DNA from: Streptomyces cyaneofuscatus
Lineage (GTDB): Bacteria > Actinomycetota > Actinomycetes > Streptomycetales > Streptomycetaceae
Length of the DNA stretch: 64,000 bases
Assembly (NCBI RefSeq): GCF_000718135.1
Contig: NZ_JOEM01000009.1
Location: forward strand, 124,001-188,000
Direction of reading: 5' to 3'
The number at the start of each line of letters is the position of its first letter. The first letter of the stretch is position 1. The position numbers were made by a program, and so were the translations under genes. The notes under the pieces were generated by a model. It searched no databases and was not told where the DNA came from. It saw only the letters and a list, made by a program, of their open reading frames with translations. This document shows positions 4,847 through 45,013 of the stretch, piece after piece.

Positions 4847-6256
4847 TCAGTGGCGGCCCGAGATGCGGTCCGCCGCCTTCGCGATCGGGTCGGTGCCGGG
4901 GCGCGGTGAGACCGTCTCGCGGCGGTCGGCGCCGCGGTAGGCCGCGTACAGGCCGTGGACGCCGAGCCAGCGGAAGGGTTCCGGTTCCCAGCGGCGGACC
5001 TTGTGGTTGACCCAGGGGAGGGTCGTCAGGTCGGTGGGGCCCGCCTGGCCGGAGTCCTGCTGGATCAGGTCGCGCAGGGTACGGGCGGCGAGGTTGGCGG
5101 TGGCGACGCCGGAGCCGACGTACCCGCCCGCCCAGCCGAGCCCGGTGGAGCGGTCCAGGGTGACGGTGGCGCACCAGTCGCGGGGGACGCCGAGGACGCC
5201 GGACCAGGCGTGGTCGATGCGGACGCCCGCCGTGGTGGGGAAGAGGCGGACCAGCAGGTCGCGCAGGGCGGCGATGGTGGCGGGCTGGGTGCGGCCGTCG
5301 TTGTCGGTGGCGGAGCCGTAGCGGTAGGGGTAGCCGCGGCCGCCGATGGCGATGCGGTCGTCGGCGGTGCGCTGGGCGTAGAGGTAGGCGTGGGCCATGT
5401 CGCCGAGGGTCTCGCGGCCCTCCCAGCCGATGGTGTCCCAGATACGGGCGGGGAGGGGCTCGGTGGCGATCATGGAGGAGTTCATCGGGAGCCAGGTCCG
5501 CTTGTGCCCCTTGAGACCCGCCGTGAAGCCCTCGGTGCAGCGCAGGATGTAGGGGGCGCGGACCGTGCCGTACGGGGTGACGGCGTGCTTGGGCTTGATC
5601 TCGGTGACCGGGGTCGACTCGTGGATCGTGACACCGAGCGCCTCGACGGTGTCCGCGAGGCCCTTGACCAGCTTGGCGGGGTGGAGGCGGGCGCCGTGCG
5701 GGGTCCAGGTGGAGCCGACGGCTCCGGTGGCGTGGACGCGCTCGGCGGTCTCGCGGGCGCCGCGCAGGACCCGGTCGGTCTCCCCGAACGCGATCTCGAT
5801 GCTGTGGAAGTCCTTGAGGCGGGCGAGCTGCGCCGGGGTGTGGGCGACCTCCAGGACGCCGCCCTGGTGGATGTCGGCCTCGATCTTCTCCTCGGCGGCC
5901 ACCCGGACGACCTCGCCGACGGTTTCGTTCATCGCCTTCTGGAGCCGTACGGCGGCGTCGTGGCCGTGCAGCTTGGCGTACCGTTCGCGGCCCGCGATGC
6001 CGTTGTACAGCCAGCCGCCGTTACGGCCGGAGGCCCCGTAACCGCAGAACTTGGCCTCCAGCACGGTGATGTTGAGGAAGGGGACGGCCTTCTTGAGGTA
6101 GTACGCCGTCCAGAGCCCGGTGTAGCCGCCGCCGACGATGCAGACGTCGGCGCTCGCGTCGCCCGGGAGGGGTTCGCGGGGGGCCGGGGTGCCCTCCTGC
6201 GCGTACCAGAACGATATGCCGCCGTTGACGGTACTGGCGTTGCTGACGGTGCTCAT
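4847..6256 (-). CDS. FAD-dependent amine/amino-acid oxidoreductase (DAO family)
   Basis: 469-aa flavoenzyme. The N-terminal dinucleotide-binding motif VCIVGGGYTGLWTAYYLKK is at about residues 38-56, the GRNGG motif follows, and the C-terminal FAD-contacting GWAGGYVGSGVATANLAARTL is typical of D-amino-acid-oxidase-fold proteins of the glycine oxidase / gamma-glutamylputrescine oxidase (PuuB) group. No signal peptide, so cytoplasmic. It converges on the sortase gene with only 3 bp between stops. Substrate cannot be decided; no polyamine genes flank it. Confidence 0.85.
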   Translation of the reverse strand: MSTVSNASTVNGGISFWYAQEGTPAPREPLPGDASADVCIVGGGYTGLWTAYYLKKAVPFLNITVLEAKFCGYGASGRNGGWLYNGIAGRERYAKLHGHDAAVRLQKAMNETVGEVVRVAAEEKIEADIHQGGVLEVAHTPAQLARLKDFHSIEIAFGETDRVLRGARETAERVHATGAVGSTWTPHGARLHPAKLVKGLADTVEALGVTIHESTPVTEIKPKHAVTPYGTVRAPYILRCTEGFTAGLKGHKRTWLPMNSSMIATEPLPARIWDTIGWEGRETLGDMAHAYLYAQRTADDRIAIGGRGYPYRYGSATDNDGRTQPATIAALRDLLVRLFPTTAGVRIDHAWSGVLGVPRDWCATVTLDRSTGLGWAGGYVGSGVATANLAARTLRDLIQQDSGQAGPTDLTTLPWVNHKVRRWEPEPFRWLGVHGLYAAYRGADRRETVSPRPGTDPIAKAADRISGRH

Positions 6257-7055: not shown

Positions 7056-8021
7056 GTGATTGACATCCCGGACGAGCTGATCGCCACTCAGTACGCATAC
7101 AACGGGGCGGCCGGGCGGGCCTTCGTCGCCGCGCTGCCCGGCCTCGCCGCCCGGTTCCTGGAGGAGTGGGGGCTGCGGCGGGACGGGGCCGTGATGTACG
7201 GCATGTGCGCGCTGGTCCTGCCGGTGGTGCGGGAGGCGGACGGGGTGCCGGCCGCGCTGAAGCTCCAGCTGGTGGACGAGGAGACGGCGGGCGAGCCGGT
7301 CGCGCTGCGGGCGTGGGGTGCGGCGGGGGCCGGGGCGGTGGGGGTGCTCGGCCATGACCCGGAGACCGGGGCGCTGCTGCTGGAACGGCTCGATGAGGGG
7401 CGGCCGTTGTCGGGGATGGCCGGGGGAGGGGGTGTTCCTGGGGGGAGCCGTCTGGTGGGGGAGGTGGCCGATGCCCGGCGCGCGGTGACGGTGCTCGGCG
7501 GGGTGCTGGCCCGGCTGGCGGCGGTGCCCGCGCCGGAGGGGCTGCGCACGCTGGGCGATGCGGTGGAGCGGATGCTGGCGGCGGCTCCGGGGGTGGTGGA
7601 GCGGCTGGCCGACGAGGGGGAACGGCGGCTGCTCGCGGACTGCGTGGCGGCGGTGCGGGAGGTGGCGGGTGAGCCGGGGGACCGGTTGCTCCACTGGGAC
7701 CTGCACTACGACAACATCCTGGCGGGGCGGGCGGACGCGGGGCGTGCGGGGGAGTGGGTGGCGCTCGACCCCAAGCCGCTGGCGGGGGACCCGGGGTTCG
7801 AGCTGTTCCCGGCGCTGGACAACCTGTTCGACGCCGGGGAGGTGGTGTGGCGGTTCGACGCGCTGACGGAGGCGCTGGGCATGGAGCGGGACCGGGGGCG
7901 GGCGCGGGCCTGGACGCTGGGGCGGGTGCTCCAGAACGCGGTGTGGGCGGTCGGGGACGGGGAGCGCGAACTGGCCCCGGACCATGCGGAGATCGCGCGG
8001 CGGTTGCTGGGGGTGGGGTGA
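7056..8021 (+). CDS. Aminoglycoside-type phosphotransferase, APH(6)/hydroxyurea family
   Basis: 321-aa kinase-fold enzyme. The ATP-binding lobe has VPAALKLQL (candidate nucleotide-binding Lys), and the catalytic loop LLHWDLHYDNIL and the metal-binding segment WVALDPKPLAGDPGFEL are as in streptomycin/hydroxyurea 6-phosphotransferases. Such enzymes transfer phosphate from ATP to an aminoglycoside or hydroxyurea, but many chromosomal Streptomyces copies have unknown substrates. GTG 7056 lies directly after TAGGAT (7043-7048), so the mRNA is probably leaderless. Divergent from the rhomboid-like gene. Confidence 0.82.
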   Translation: MIDIPDELIATQYAYNGAAGRAFVAALPGLAARFLEEWGLRRDGAVMYGMCALVLPVVREADGVPAALKLQLVDEETAGEPVALRAWGAAGAGAVGVLGHDPETGALLLERLDEGRPLSGMAGGGGVPGGSRLVGEVADARRAVTVLGGVLARLAAVPAPEGLRTLGDAVERMLAAAPGVVERLADEGERRLLADCVAAVREVAGEPGDRLLHWDLHYDNILAGRADAGRAGEWVALDPKPLAGDPGFELFPALDNLFDAGEVVWRFDALTEALGMERDRGRARAWTLGRVLQNAVWAVGDGERELAPDHAEIARRLLGVG

Positions 8022-39185: not shown

Positions 39186-39227
39186 CACAGGGGCGGCATC
39201 TCCTTCACGGGAGGTGCCGCCCCTGTG
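39186..39227 (+). terminator. Hairpin terminator after groEL2
   Basis: CACAGGGGCGGCA pairs with TGCCGCCCCTGTG and CTCC with GGAG inside, about 50 bp after the stop. Confidence 0.85.
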
Positions 39228-39300
39228 GCGTGTCCGGGGGGTGCTGGGACACTGCGGGAGCGGTCGGTGTGTCTCTTACGGGTACGGGGACGGGGCGGGC

Positions 39301-39822
39301 ATGAGCGTGAGTGCTGCGGGGAGAAGGGGCGGAGGACGGCTCAAGGGGACCTCGCTCGTGGTGGGTGGGGCCGTGCTGTTCGCGGCGGGGCTGTTCATCG
39401 TGGCGACCGGAACGGGCCTCTCCGGCCTCCTCGGCATGCGGGTGGAGACATTCGGCCGGATCGACTGCCAGGACACGCGTACGGAGAAGGGGCAGACGGT
39501 CTGGCACTGCTTCGGCGAGACCCCCGCGCAGCAGCGCGCCAACGAGGCGGAGCGCAAGCGGGTCGCCGATGGGGCTCTGCGCGTCCATGTGGACGGCATG
39601 CCGGAGCCGGCCCGGATCGGACGCACCCGGATCCTCTTCGCGGACCACGACGGCAGGAACGACCCCGGACCGGTCACCGCGACGCAGGTGACCGAACGCG
39701 GACGGTGGTTCGCCCACTCGTCGACGGTCGTCGGCTACGGCATGATCCCGCTGCTGCTGGGCGCCGGAACGGCGGCCTGGGGCGGCTACCGGATGCGCGA
39801 AGCGGGGCGACGGAGCCGCTGA
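39301..39822 (+). CDS. Two-TM conserved membrane protein (DUF3592-like)
   Basis: 173-aa protein. TM1 is LVVGGAVLFAAGLFIVATGTGLSGLLG, and TM2 near the end is VVGYGMIPLLLGAGTAAWGGY. Between them lies an extracytoplasmic segment with two Cys (RIDCQDTRTEKGQTVWHCFGE) that may form a disulfide. The layout resembles small DUF3592-like Streptomyces proteins; no enzymatic motif is seen. ATG 39301 follows GGGGCGGGC. Monocistronic between groEL2 and the lasso cluster. Confidence 0.7.
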   Translation: MSVSAAGRRGGGRLKGTSLVVGGAVLFAAGLFIVATGTGLSGLLGMRVETFGRIDCQDTRTEKGQTVWHCFGETPAQQRANEAERKRVADGALRVHVDGMPEPARIGRTRILFADHDGRNDPGPVTATQVTERGRWFAHSSTVVGYGMIPLLLGAGTAAWGGYRMREAGRRSR

Positions 39823-39857
39823 GGGGCGCCGAGGGGCGCCGAGGGGCGCCGAGGGGC
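39821..39857. repeat. Short tandem repeat GAGGGGCGCC
   Basis: Three perfect 10-bp copies and a partial fourth begin at the last base pairs of the preceding gene. Simple slippage repeat. Confidence 0.7.
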
Positions 39858-40296
39858 CGCTGATCGGCGCCGAGAGGCCCTGATGGACCCGAACGAGCGG
39901 TCGGGCATGGCCGAATGGCTACTTGCCGTGTCCGAGCCGGTACGGCAACACGTGTTCGACCGGTTTCGGTGATGTCGGTGGCGCGCCGGTCGCCGGTGGG
40001 GTAGCGCCGCCGTGGGTGCTGCCGGAGGCCGCGCACCGCTGGTTCGCCCCTCGCGCCGCGCGCGGTTCGATCTCTTGGCAGCTCACCGCCCGGGCCGGTC
40101 GCCGCGTACAGCCATTGGTCCAGTCCACTGCTCCTGTGTGCCGCATCGGTGTGCGACTGCACATGCCGACCGGTCGGTGCCCTGTGGTACGGCCGAGGGC
40201 TGCGGCGCCCGCCTTCTTCGCTTGCGCTATCCGGCCAACTTCACCCGGTGGCCCGGAATCACGCGTACCGGCCCGGCGGCGGGACATGATGGCCCT

Positions 40297-40317
40297 GGTG
40301 TTCACCTGGTGAACACC
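40297..40317. promoter_or_regulatory. Perfect 21-bp palindrome upstream of the lasso cluster
   Basis: Arms GGTGTTCACC and GGTGAACACC flank a central T. It ends 75 bp before the precursor ATG. A second dyad ATAACT-CC-AGTTAT follows at 40328-40341. It is probably an operator for an unlinked regulator, since no regulator gene is in the cluster. The remainder of 39858-40392 shows no convincing gene; open frames on both strands lack conserved motifs. Confidence 0.65.
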
Positions 40318-40392
40318 TGTCGCATGAATAACTCCAGTTATGCGGACGTCAGTTGGGCATAACGGTCGTCAACCGCACAGAAGGAAGGTGTC

Positions 40393-40515
40393 ATGAAGCA
40401 GCAGAAGAAGGCTTACGTGAAGCCGTCGCTGTTCAAGCAGGGCGACTTTTCGAAGAAGACCGCCGGTTACTTCTACGGCTCGTACAAGGAGTACTGGGTC
40501 CGGCGCATCATCTGA
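40393..40515 (+). CDS. Lasso peptide precursor
   Basis: 40-aa precursor. The 24-residue leader contains the YxxPxLxxxGxF recognition motif (YVKPSLFKQGDF) and the penultimate Thr (KKTA) that marks lasso leaders. The predicted core is GYFYGSYKEYWVRRII: Gly1 amine would be joined to the Glu9 side chain, giving a 9-residue ring with tail YWVRRII threaded through it. From memory it differs from SRO15-2005 of S. roseosporus (GYFVGSYKEYWSRRII) at positions 4 and 12. SD GAAGGAAGG precedes the ATG. It is followed directly by cyclase, leader-binding, peptidase and exporter genes. Confidence 0.93.
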   Translation: MKQQKKAYVKPSLFKQGDFSKKTAGYFYGSYKEYWVRRII

Positions 40516-40565
40516 TCCGCCGACCGGCTCCCTGTGCACGGTGTGAGAACTTCCGAAAGGTGAAG

Positions 40566-42491
40566 ATGCCCGGCCTGCTGCGTGACTACTTCGTCGTCCT
40601 GCCGGACAGCGTGGCGGGCCACGCGGTGGCCGGGCAGCTTCCCGTACCGGACACCACCCGGAGCGCAGGAGGGGCGGGCGGCACCGTCACCGTCGCCCAC
40701 CCCTCCGGCCGCCCCTGGGTCGTCGCCCGCCCCCTGGTCCGCAAGGTCAGCCACCTCCGCCGGGGCGACGACGCCCTCGTGCTCATCGGCCCCGACCGCG
40801 TCCCCGAGGCCGTGCTCGCCGGCCTTCTGGAGGGCGCCCGCGACCGGGCCGGGCTGGAACGGCGCCTCGCCCGGCTCCCCGGCCTCCACCACGTCATCGC
40901 GCACCTCTCCGGCGAGACCTGGATCCGGGGCACCGCCTCCGGCCTGCGCCGGATCTACCACGTCCGGCACGCCGAGGCCGGAAGCATCGCCTCCGACCGC
41001 CCGGCCGTCCTCGCGCACCTGACCGGCGCACCCCTGGACGACGGCGCGCTCGCCCTGCGCATGCTCGACTTCCTGCCGCACCCCCTGAGCCGGCGCGTCC
41101 TGTGGCGGGGCGTGCACGAGACCGGGGCCGGGTACGGACTGGCCCTGCCCGTCGCAGCACCGGGCACGGCCGCTGCCCCCGGCCCTCGCGAGTACCGCTG
41201 GTGGGAGCCCCCGCCGCCGGAACTCTCCCTGACGGAGGGCGCCCGAAGACTCGGGGACGCCGTCGCCGCCTCCGTACGAGCGCATATCGGCGGCCTGGAC
41301 CGGATCAGCTGCGAGCTCTCCGGCGGCCTGGACTCCACCACCCTCACCTTCGCCGCCCGCGCGACCGCCCCGGCGGAGCTGTCGCTGCTCACCGTGGCGG
41401 CCCGGGACCGCTACAGCGAGGACGAGACGTGGGCGCGGCGGGCGGTGGAGGCAGCACAGGGCGGGCAGACGGACACCCCCGCCTTGGCCCACCACATCAT
41501 CCCCGCCGACCAAGCCCCGTACTTCTACGCGGACTTGACGGCAACCGCCGCCGAGCTCAACGACGAACCGCTCCCCGTGGCCCCCGGCCGGGCCCGCGCG
41601 CACCTGCTCCTCAGCCGCGCCCACGCCACCGGCTCCCGCTACCACCTCACCGGCTACGGCGGCGACGAACTCTTCCTCGGCCTGCCCCACGCCTACCAGG
41701 ACCTCTTCCACGGCAACCCGCTCACCGCCTGGAACCACCTCAGCGGCCTGCGCCACCAGCTCGGCTGGCCGCTGCTCCCCACCTTGAAGGCCTTGCTGAA
41801 CCGCTCCACGTTCCCCCACTGGCTCGCGGGCGCGGTCACCACCGAACCCCAGCCGGTCACCCGCACCCCGCTCCTCTCCTGGGGCGTGCGCCAGTCCTTG
41901 CGCCCGTGGTTCACGGACCACGCGAACGCCCTGATCACCGAGGAGTTCCGGGCGGCCGCCGCCGGGCAGGCCGAGCCGGTCGACCGGTGGCGGGGGCGGC
42001 ATGTGGACATCGACGCGGTACGGATGGGGGCGCGGCACTTCCAGGCGATGGAGGACATCGGCATGACGATCGGGCTGCCGGTCGCCGCGCCCTTCTACGA
42101 CGACCGGGTCCTGGAGGCGACCCTCGCCGTACGCCTGGAGGAGCGCATCAGCCCCTGGCGCTACAAGCCGCTGCTCGTCGAGGCGATGCGCGGGGTGGTG
42201 CCGGATGCGCTGCTGGCCCGTACGACGAAGGACCACATGTCCTCCGACGAACACCAGGGCCTCCGCGAACACGCGCCGGACCTGGCCGACTTGTGGACGG
42301 GCTCGCGCCTGGCCGAACACGGCCTGGTGGACGCCCGCAACCTGCTCCGACTGGCTGCCGAACCCTTCTCGCCGGTCCTGGTCGAGCACTCCATCAGCTC
42401 CACGGTGGCCGGGGAGACCTGGCTGCGCACGGCCGAGAACGCCTGGCCCACACCCGATCGGACCCCCACGACCAGCGAGGCATCGCGATGA
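40566..42491 (+). CDS. Lasso cyclase (asparagine-synthetase-like, C protein)
   Basis: 641-aa ATP-dependent macrolactam synthetase. The N-terminal part corresponds to a degenerate glutaminase-like domain without catalytic Cys (starts MPGLLRDYFVVLPDS). The synthetase domain has the PPi loop Ser252-Thr258 (CELSGGLDSTTLTFA) and the later YGGDELFLGLPHAYQDLF. It adenylates Glu9 of the core and closes the ring with Gly1 while the tail is held inside. SD GAAAGG is 4 bases before ATG 40566. Its stop overlaps the next start (ATGA). Confidence 0.93.
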   Translation: MPGLLRDYFVVLPDSVAGHAVAGQLPVPDTTRSAGGAGGTVTVAHPSGRPWVVARPLVRKVSHLRRGDDALVLIGPDRVPEAVLAGLLEGARDRAGLERRLARLPGLHHVIAHLSGETWIRGTASGLRRIYHVRHAEAGSIASDRPAVLAHLTGAPLDDGALALRMLDFLPHPLSRRVLWRGVHETGAGYGLALPVAAPGTAAAPGPREYRWWEPPPPELSLTEGARRLGDAVAASVRAHIGGLDRISCELSGGLDSTTLTFAARATAPAELSLLTVAARDRYSEDETWARRAVEAAQGGQTDTPALAHHIIPADQAPYFYADLTATAAELNDEPLPVAPGRARAHLLLSRAHATGSRYHLTGYGGDELFLGLPHAYQDLFHGNPLTAWNHLSGLRHQLGWPLLPTLKALLNRSTFPHWLAGAVTTEPQPVTRTPLLSWGVRQSLRPWFTDHANALITEEFRAAAAGQAEPVDRWRGRHVDIDAVRMGARHFQAMEDIGMTIGLPVAAPFYDDRVLEATLAVRLEERISPWRYKPLLVEAMRGVVPDALLARTTKDHMSSDEHQGLREHAPDLADLWTGSRLAEHGLVDARNLLRLAAEPFSPVLVEHSISSTVAGETWLRTAENAWPTPDRTPTTSEASR

Positions 42492-42739
42492 AGCTCAGAA
42501 AAGGCATAGCCGTCACGACGACCGAGTACGGAGGCGTGCTGCTCGACGAAAAGGACGGTAGCTACTGGCAGTTGAACGACACGAGCATCATCGTCGTGGA
42601 GACGCTGGCCGCCGGGCAGGTCCCCGAGGCGGCCGTCGAACGCATCGTCGCCGAGTTCGACGTCGAGCGCGCGGAGGCGGAGTCGGACGTCGCCCAGCTG
42701 ACCCGTCAGCTCGTCGAGGCGAAGATCCTGCGCCCATGA
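42488..42739 (+). CDS. Lasso RRE protein (PqqD-like, B1)
   Basis: 83-aa PqqD-fold protein that binds the precursor leader and delivers it to the peptidase. MKLRKGIAVTTTEYGGVLLDEKDGSYWQLNDTSIIVVETLAAGQVPEAAVERIVAEFDVERAEAESDVAQLTRQLVEAKI is the complete fold (three-strand wing and three helices). The start overlaps the cyclase stop and its own stop overlaps the next start, both ATGA, so the proteins are made in matched amounts. Confidence 0.93.
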   Translation: MKLRKGIAVTTTEYGGVLLDEKDGSYWQLNDTSIIVVETLAAGQVPEAAVERIVAEFDVERAEAESDVAQLTRQLVEAKILRP

Positions 42740-43206
42740 CCACCGAGATGACGATGCCGCGGCGGGGAGCCGGGCCGGGAGGCGTACGGCTGCGCGCCGC
42801 GATCGCCGCCGCGTTCGTCCTGGCCCGCTTCAAACCGGGCCGCCTGCGCCGGGTGCTGACCCGCTGCGCCAAGGGCGCGCGCCCGGCGACGTACGAGGAG
42901 ACGCTGGAGGCGTACGAGGCGGTCACCGCCACCAGCCGCCGCTGCGCGGGCCGTTACGGCTGCCTGCCCCGTTCGGTGGCCATCGCGCTGGTGTGCCGGA
43001 TGTCGGGTAGCTGGCCGGACTGGTGCGCGGGGGTCCGGACGGCACCGCCGTTCTCGCCGCATGCTTGGGTGGAGGCGGAGGGCCGCACGGTCGGCGAGCA
43101 GGCGGCGTCGGCCGATCTGCGTCCTTTGATGGTGGTGACGGTACGCGAGGGGGTTCCGGGTGAGCGCGGTGGCGGGAACGACGACGGGGGCGGACAGGCG
43201 CCCTGA
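42736..43206 (+). CDS. Lasso leader peptidase (transglutaminase-like, B2)
   Basis: 156-aa cysteine peptidase that removes the leader. Cys76 is in RYGCLPRSVAIAL and His109 in FSPHAWVEAEG, the catalytic pair of McjB-type enzymes; the third acidic residue is probably in the ADLRPL strand. The C-terminus is a Gly/Asp-rich tail that overlaps the ABC exporter start by about 47 bp. ATG 42736 overlaps the RRE gene stop. Confidence 0.92.
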   Translation: MTTEMTMPRRGAGPGGVRLRAAIAAAFVLARFKPGRLRRVLTRCAKGARPATYEETLEAYEAVTATSRRCAGRYGCLPRSVAIALVCRMSGSWPDWCAGVRTAPPFSPHAWVEAEGRTVGEQAASADLRPLMVVTVREGVPGERGGGNDDGGGQAP

Positions 43207-45013
43207 GGGGCCTGGGGTGTCCGGGACACCTGGGGTGCCTGCGGGGAGCGGACCACCCTCCGAAGCGACCACGCCCGGCGCGTCACCCCTCCGCCTCCTC
43301 CTGACCCGGGTCCGCCCCCACCGCGGCGTACTCATCCGCGCGGGCCTCCTCTCCCTCACCGGTTCCACGGCCGGCCTGGCGATGCCGCTGATGGCGAAGT
43401 ACGCGGTGGACGCGTTCGCCGCGGACCGCTCGCCGGTGACCCCGCTCATCGCACTCACCGCACTGGTCCTCGCGGGCGCCTGCCTCTCCGCGTACGGCCG
43501 CTACCTCATGGCCCGTACGGGAGAAGGCGTCGTCCTCCGGGCGCGCGACCAACTCGTGGGCCGCATCATGCGGTTGAAGGTCCCGGCGGTGGACCGTCTG
43601 ACCCCCGGCGACCTCCAGTCCCGCGTCACCAGCGACACCACCCTCCTGCGAACGGTCCTCTCCAGCGGCCTGGTCGAGTCGTTCAACAGCGTGCTGATGC
43701 TGCTGGGGACGATCGCGTTCATGGCGTACATGGACCTGACGCTGCTGGGCGTGACGCTCGTGGTGATCGTCGGTATCGGAGCCGTAACTGCCTTGCTCAT
43801 GCCCCGCATTCAGCGCGCGCAGCTCCGCGCACAGGAGTCGGTCGGCGCGATGGGCGCGGCGCTGGACCGGGTGCTCCAGGCGTTCCGTACGGTCAAGGCG
43901 AGCGGCGCCGAGGAGCGGGAAACGGCGGCCGTGGCCGAGGCGGCACGGCATGCGCACGACCGGGGCGTCTCGGTGGCGAAGTGGTCCTCGGTCTCCGACG
44001 TCACGATGATGATGTCGATCCAACTGGCCTTCCTGGCCGTGCTGGGCGTGGGCGGCGCGAGGGTGGCGTCAGGCTCGCTCGACATCTCCTCCCTGATCGC
44101 GTTCCTGCTCTACCTCTTCTACCTGATGGGCCCGATCGGCGGCCTGGTCGAGGGCTGGACGGGCCTGCAGAGCGGCCTCGCCGCCGTACGCAGGATCGAC
44201 GAGGTGGAGTCACTGCCGGGCGAACCTGTCGGCCGGCCCGGCGCCGTACCGGGCGAGGGGACTCCGCTGCGGGTCACCTTCCAGGACGTGACCTTCGGGT
44301 ACGGGGACGAGCGCGCCCCCGCCCACAAGGGCGTCACGTTCGAGGTCCCGGCCGGCGGGATGGTGGCGCTGGTGGGCCCTTCGGGGGCGGGGAAGTCGAC
44401 GGTGTTCAGCCTGCTGGAGCGGTTCTACGACCACGACGGCGGCACGATCACCGTGGACGGCCGGGACATCCGGGACTGGCCGCTGGCGGAGCTGCGGGCC
44501 TCGCTCGCGTACGTGGAGCAGGACGCCCCGGTCCTGGCCGGGACGCTGAGGGAGAACCTGCTCTTCGCGGCCCCGGATGCCCCGGAGGACCGGCTGACGG
44601 AGGCGGTGGCCCGGACCCGCCTGGACGCCCTGGTCGCCCGCCTGCCCGACGGCCTGGACACGGCGGTGGGCCACCGGGGCGTCACTCTCTCCGGCGGCGA
44701 ACGCCAGCGCATCGCCATCGCCCGCGCCCTGCTGCGCCGCCCGCGCCTTCTTCTGCTGGACGAGGTGACGTCACAGCTGGACGCGGTCAACGAACAGGCG
44801 CTACGGGACGTCATCCTCGAACTGGCGACACAGACAACGGTGTTGGTCATCGCCCACCGCCTCTCCACCGTCCGCCACGCCGACCGCATCGTGGTCCTGG
44901 AAGAGGGCCGCGTCCGCACGGCGGGCACGCACGAGGAGCTGATCGCCTCGGACGACCTGTACCGGGAGCTTGCGACGACGCAGTTGGCAGCCGCAACGGA
45001 TCAGCCGGTGTAG
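43160..45013 (+). CDS. Lasso peptide ABC exporter (D protein)
   Basis: 617-aa half-transporter with fused membrane and ATPase domains. A Pro/Gly/Thr-rich N-terminus (~40 aa) is followed by six TM helices (from PHRGVLIRAGLLSLTGSTAGLAMPLMAKYAVDAF), then an ABC domain with Walker A GPSGAGKST, signature LSGGERQRIAIARALL and Walker B LLLLDEVTSQLDAVNE. It would export the mature peptide and so give self-immunity. The GTG at 43160 lies inside the end of the peptidase gene. The cluster ends here. Confidence 0.92.
   Translation: MSAVAGTTTGADRRPEGPGVSGTPGVPAGSGPPSEATTPGASPLRLLLTRVRPHRGVLIRAGLLSLTGSTAGLAMPLMAKYAVDAFAADRSPVTPLIALTALVLAGACLSAYGRYLMARTGEGVVLRARDQLVGRIMRLKVPAVDRLTPGDLQSRVTSDTTLLRTVLSSGLVESFNSVLMLLGTIAFMAYMDLTLLGVTLVVIVGIGAVTALLMPRIQRAQLRAQESVGAMGAALDRVLQAFRTVKASGAEERETAAVAEAARHAHDRGVSVAKWSSVSDVTMMMSIQLAFLAVLGVGGARVASGSLDISSLIAFLLYLFYLMGPIGGLVEGWTGLQSGLAAVRRIDEVESLPGEPVGRPGAVPGEGTPLRVTFQDVTFGYGDERAPAHKGVTFEVPAGGMVALVGPSGAGKSTVFSLLERFYDHDGGTITVDGRDIRDWPLAELRASLAYVEQDAPVLAGTLRENLLFAAPDAPEDRLTEAVARTRLDALVARLPDGLDTAVGHRGVTLSGGERQRIAIARALLRRPRLLLLDEVTSQLDAVNEQALRDVILELATQTTVLVIAHRLSTVRHADRIVVLEEGRVRTAGTHEELIASDDLYRELATTQLAAATDQPV

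Follow-up and report, generated by a model that had tools for sequence, protein, structure and literature searches.

A lasso peptide operon beside groL in Streptomyces cyaneofuscatus encodes a two-residue congener of SRO15-2005

Does the 40-codon open reading frame (ORF) starting at position 40393 of the S. cyaneofuscatus DNA considered here (64,000 nucleotides, hereafter the window) head a complete set of lasso peptide genes, and if so, how new is the peptide that it would encode? The original prediction was of a complete cluster with a new core. Its first half is confirmed by translations and family matches: the precursor gene is followed by genes for a cyclase, an RRE protein, a leader peptidase and an exporter. 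The cluster is real, complete and ordinary; its peptide differs from SRO15-2005 by two residues and is closely related to 9810-LP. This picture draws on genes, family matches and conserved residues, while the product (2081.05 Da), its threading and any function are predictions. The features of the locus are as follows.

40297..40317, no strand: perfect 9-3-9 dyad GGTGTTCAC-CTG-GTGAACACC, candidate operator or 5′ leader hairpin
40393..40515, + strand: lasso precursor (A), leader 1-24, core 25-40 GYFYGSYKEYWVRRII; NF033521, DUF5972 and conservation among relatives
40566..42491, + strand: lasso cyclase (C), asparagine synthase-like, 641 aa; Pfam Asn_synthase 2.2e-37, SGGLDS-type motif
42488..42739, + strand: RRE/PqqD-like leader-binding protein (E, B1), 83 aa; NF033530, TfuB1 match
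42736..43206, + strand: leader peptidase (B, B2), transglutaminase-like, 156 aa; NF033537, invariant Cys76, His109 and Glu121
43160..45013, + strand: ABC exporter (D), 617 aa from GTG 43160; NCBIfam and Pfam matches

The cyclase, RRE, B2 and exporter genes all lie 3′ of the precursor gene and on its strand, and all five ORFs are open. Overlapping starts, as originally proposed, occur at three junctions (cyclase/RRE, 4 nt; RRE/peptidase, 4 nt; peptidase/exporter, 47 nt, with a GTG start) but not between precursor and cyclase, which are separated by 50 nt. The exporter start is GTG or ATG at the aligned position in 15 of the 16 groL-locus loci compared, with L018 having a GTG 3 nt later. No regulator gene is present among the five.

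The precursor ORF (40393-40515) translates as MKQQKKAYVKPSLFKQGDFSKKTAGYFYGSYKEYWVRRII, i.e., the leader MKQQKKAYVKPSLFKQGDFSKKTA followed by the core GYFYGSYKEYWVRRII. Pfam DUF5972 recognises the leader at 1.5e-10, and NF033521, the model of NCBIfam for lasso leaders, gives 19 bits, just at its cut-off. Relatives of the precursor were found in 14 of 392 genomes of the genus at E 0.01 and in 2 of 41 genomes of a mixed-rank set, the source genome being included in both counts. The DUF5972 match and the relatives within the genus argue that the putative precursor ORF is not a chance one. In the source genome itself (7.9 Mb, 126 contigs), a single match to the precursor appears at E values up to 10, and Transglut_core3 (B2) likewise has one match. 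Among the best 60 of 66 PDB matches to the precursor at E up to 10, the lowest value is 0.072 and almost all are antibody chains, so these are presumably chance matches. Across 12 aligned precursors, Tyr8, Pro11, Thr23, Ala24, Gly25 and Glu33 (Glu9 of the core) are invariant. A short leader and a core that begins with Gly and carries Glu at position 9 agree with the rule given for lasso precursors, namely Gly (or Cys, rarely Ser or Ala) at the start of the core and Asp or Glu at positions 7-9 (PMC5974421). The core is free of Cys and hence of a disulphide, which places it in class II, and a Gly1-Glu9 ring is expected in the predicted 16-mer product.

The partner proteins point in the same direction. 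The NCBIfam macrolactam and lasso cyclase models match the cyclase, all under their cut-offs (best 219.6 bits, NF033561, cut-off 300), and the SGGLDS-type and GYGGDELF-type motifs are retained with small changes in 25 aligned loci; a PDB search with the cyclase gave no match at 0.001. The RRE protein scores 95.9 bits against NF033530, above the cut-off of 70, and matches TfuB1 (PDB 6jx3, E 5.6e-17), which we take to be the RRE protein from a lasso system of Thermobifida fusca, the comparison covering the RRE sequence. The B2 peptidase exceeds the cut-off of NF033537 by far (112.9 bits against 33); in the PDB, it found three matches only, at 0.088 or worse. Its Cys76, His109 and Glu121 are invariant in 15 of 15 aligned proteins (that of the window and 14 picked by hand from the 120 listed), and we read them, after the work on McjB, as the presumable catalytic triad. 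The invariant Glu stands twelve residues past the His in all 15 peptidases, and McjB has Asp at this place. An RRE, a B2 peptidase with the Cys, His and acidic residues, and an asparagine synthase-like cyclase, the marks of a lasso cluster, are thus all found here.

The nearest named peptide is SRO15-2005, whose core is listed as GYFVGSYKEYWSRRII, class II, in a table of PMC12427821. The claim that the two cores differ by two residues is borne out by that table: both are 16-mers with a Gly1-Glu9 ring and a YW-x-RRII tail and share 14 of 16 residues, whereas SRO15-2005 has Val4 and Ser12 in place of Tyr4 and Val12. Recalculation also reproduced the predicted masses for the cyclised core, with M 2081.0523, [M+H]+ 2082.0596 and [M+2H]2+ 1041.5334, against 2005.0210 for SRO15-2005. 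The setting is shared as well, since the window and five loci encoding the exact SRO15-2005 core all have the cluster beside groL; the comparison was made with loci encoding that core. One of them, L028, is strain PTY087I2, for which a lasso cluster 100% similar to that of SRO15-2005 has been reported (PMC5577605).

The link to keywimysin comes from naming and coordinates. A search of the protein database with the precursor listed four relatives, none identical, and two of the four bear the NCBI name ‘keywimysin-related RiPP’. In strain CS-7, keywimysin is assigned to region 1.1, 39,664-62,361, in one table, and SRO15-2005 to scaffold 1, 42,415-62,595, in a second (PMC9581153); the overlapping coordinates suggest that both names refer to one place.

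The best-studied relative is 9810-LP from Streptomyces sp. ADI98-10, with the precursor MKLQKKAYVKPSLFKQGDFSKKTA-GYFVGSYKEYWTRRIV (PMC5974421). Its leader is that of the window except at residue 3 (Leu for Gln), and its core GYFVGSYKEYWTRRIV shares the ring GYF-x-GSYKE but differs in three residues, having Val4, Thr12 and Val16. A core of the form GYF-x-GSYKEYW-x-RRI(I/V) behind its leader marks the SRO15-2005/keywimysin family, and the window has both. 9810-LP has been made heterologously in S. albus and S. lividans, with m/z within 2 ppm of the calculated value (PMC5974421; the production is restated in PMC7549694). The family matches of the leader, RRE, B2, cyclase and ABC proteins, the conserved cyclase motifs and B2 and precursor residues, and the expression of this homologous cluster with a product of matching mass make it almost certain that the genes in the window form an operon for a class II lasso peptide belonging to the SRO15-2005/keywimysin family. 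A ring closed elsewhere, or a core with further modification, is hardly to be expected, as Glu9 is the only acidic residue of the core and is invariant in the 12 aligned precursors, the layout holds no extra gene between A and D, and the ion reported for 9810-LP at m/z 669.35 (3+; PMC5974421) has the mass calculated for the loss of one water molecule.

Threading calls for more care. The original prediction proposed fragmentation confined to tail residues 10-16 as a test, and this proposal does not survive comparison with 9810-LP, for which PMC5974421 describes MS/MS spectra dominated by b15 and y7, with ring-cleavage ions in addition and the rotaxane ions diagnostic of a lasso absent. Because a peptide regarded as a lasso fragments in this manner, a failure of the tail-only pattern would not refute a lasso. 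The topology of 9810-LP rests instead on carboxypeptidase Y, the material having been too scarce for ion mobility. Digestion yielded G1-I15, G1-R14 and G1-Y10, of which the authors ascribed the last to partial unthreading and the first two to a lasso stabilised by R13-R14 (PMC5974421). The G1-Y10 product would suit a peptide that has the Gly1-Glu9 ring but is branched-cyclic and unthreaded instead of a stable lasso, yet G1-I15 and G1-R14 arose in the same assay, and an unthreaded product of the window cluster is accordingly regarded as improbable. Mass determination combined with carboxypeptidase Y and NMR should be a better criterion of the lasso fold than tail-only fragmentation.

The biosynthetic steps can be outlined for the lasso operon by analogy with studied lasso systems. 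The RRE protein would bind the leader through the conserved YxxP at residues 8-11, and B2 would cut between Ala24 and Gly25. The cyclase would then activate the side chain of Glu9 and couple it with the amine of Gly1, closing the ring around the threaded tail. Arg13-Arg14 would presumably form the lower plug, a role suggested for them in 9810-LP, and the ABC protein would export the product of 2081.05 Da.

How new the core is depends on where one looks. Neither the exact core nor KEYWVRRI was found in the full texts of open-licence papers, which leaves room for publication elsewhere, while the fragment GSYKEYW does occur in such texts. The claim of novelty holds to this extent but not among genomes, because an identical precursor protein is encoded in four other Streptomyces genomes. 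A profile of the 12 aligned precursors searched across genome contigs gave 25 loci, and 30 loci were examined after the removal of nine repeats of genomes already present (L041, L043-L050). A precursor was obtained from 28 of the 30, the window included, with 13 distinct cores; L036 and L051 gave none by the pattern used, though relatives occur there. The core of the window is present in 5 of the 28: the window itself, S. californicus NRRL B-2098, S. fimicarius NRRL ISP-5322, Streptomyces sp. CB00316 and genome G005. Two other variants deserve mention. In S. microflavus (L019, precursor at 8001), an extra C-terminal Tyr makes a 17-mer core, GYFVGSYKEYWVRRIVY, and in genome G051 (L052, precursor at 6110), a diverged core, GWFMSKKSENLTWRIGGS, follows a family-like leader beside a cyclase 53% identical to that of the window.

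The precursor genes of the four genomes are identical to that of the window at 121-122 of 123 nt, whereas the cyclases of three of them are only 78%, 91% and 91% identical to their counterpart. A precursor gene so nearly uniform beside diverged cyclases suggests either selection on the peptide or an exchange of its gene.

The cluster lies downstream of groL in the window and in 17 relatives, while groL was not found in the available sequence around the 12 other loci (L026, L030-L038, L051, L052), of which L033 and L034 are uninformative, with fewer than 900 bases upstream. In the closest relatives, core residues 4 and 12 are variable. A tree of cyclase, RRE, B2 and exporter covered 25 of the 30 loci (in L016, L021, L025, L026 and L032, too little of the cyclase or exporter is present), and a second tree, used for the clade test, comprised 15 of the 18 groL-locus loci and two picked outgroups. 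The five Tyr4/Val12 peptides, of which four have the exact core of the window and one ends in Ser, are split up on the biosynthetic-gene tree. The group of the window, CB00316 and G005 adjoins S. microflavus, which has Val4, and the other two Tyr4/Val12 loci fall outside it, paired in the 25-locus tree and unresolved in the second. Constraining the five to a single clade costs 86.13 units of log-likelihood (AU p 2.1e-24). The group was defined by its core, though after the first tree had been seen, and so small a p value is not to be read literally. At least two changes of residue 4 are required across the 15 groL-locus rows. In a DNA tree of groL+thrC covering 17 loci, with only 3 of its 14 inner branches well supported, the window and G005 again fall with S. 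microflavus. These patterns would fit either Tyr4/Val12 as the older state or an exchange of the short precursor gene.

Between groL and the precursor lies an ORF for a small putative membrane protein (39214-39822), directly followed by short direct repeats of GAGGGGCGCC at 39822-39860, seen by eye. Relatives of this ORF occur in 8 of the 392 genus genomes, 7 of them with a lasso precursor. Its candidacy as a cluster gene was rejected: genome G346 has a groL-side lasso cluster but lacks the ORF, and no relative turned up near the lasso loci that lie elsewhere than at groL, for which reasons it looks like a marker of the groL locus.

A gap of 75 nt separates the dyad from the downstream precursor ATG. 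No other site in the genome fits it without mismatch, the next having two; with three mismatches allowed, there are 14 places in the genome versus 4 for a reversed-pattern control, and one match in the window versus 0.08 expected in shuffles. The arms pair at 8 or more of 9 positions in all 18 groL-locus loci, the window included (9 pairs in 12 loci, 8 in 6). One pair is changed on both sides in L024, L025, L028, L029 and L039, which is probably a single inherited event; four of these five break another pair too, and a one-sided change occurs in L021 and L027. Among the ten other loci examined, three (L031, L032, L037) have 15-17 of the 21 letters with only 5-7 arm pairs, and the dyad is absent in the other seven. 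On folding of the RNA from 40285 to 40400, the dyad forms a hairpin, the overall stability being ordinary (z -1.32). It may be an operator or a leader hairpin, its conservation by itself being modest evidence because the 18 loci are closely related and their flanks are partly conserved too. Rex and BldD sites were considered as readings of the dyad and set aside on arm order and spacing.

A repressor site at this place would also fit an operon that is intact but silent in the source strain under usual conditions, a possibility that is compatible with a lasso operon and carries some weight, although it is not the likelier case. A simple scan of 40100-40600 revealed no sigma-70-type promoter, which says little for Streptomyces, and 9810-LP was obtained with a heterologous SARP system, many media giving traces or none (PMC5974421). 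Against silence stand the five open frames and the near identity of the precursor gene in four genomes with more diverged cyclases. More tentative still is the proposal that the dyad is the operator of an unlinked, dedicated regulator and that the variants at residues 4 and 12 are exchanged or retained alleles, so that each strain would make a distinct version of the peptide. Such diversity would be in keeping with a signal or with an inhibitor of narrow range. For the ecological role, a narrow-spectrum or signalling peptide is weakly suggested; bearing on this, the nearest tested relative, 9810-LP, was among the new peptides found inactive on six test species (PMC5974421).

With the operon in the window, a lasso family without a known function that could be found gains a further natural variant. 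Its value is comparative: the leader and the ring frame are well conserved, the substitutions fall at core positions 4 and 12, and the place beside groL is common to close relatives. The conserved dyad could lead to the regulator and hence to the conditions under which these peptides are made.
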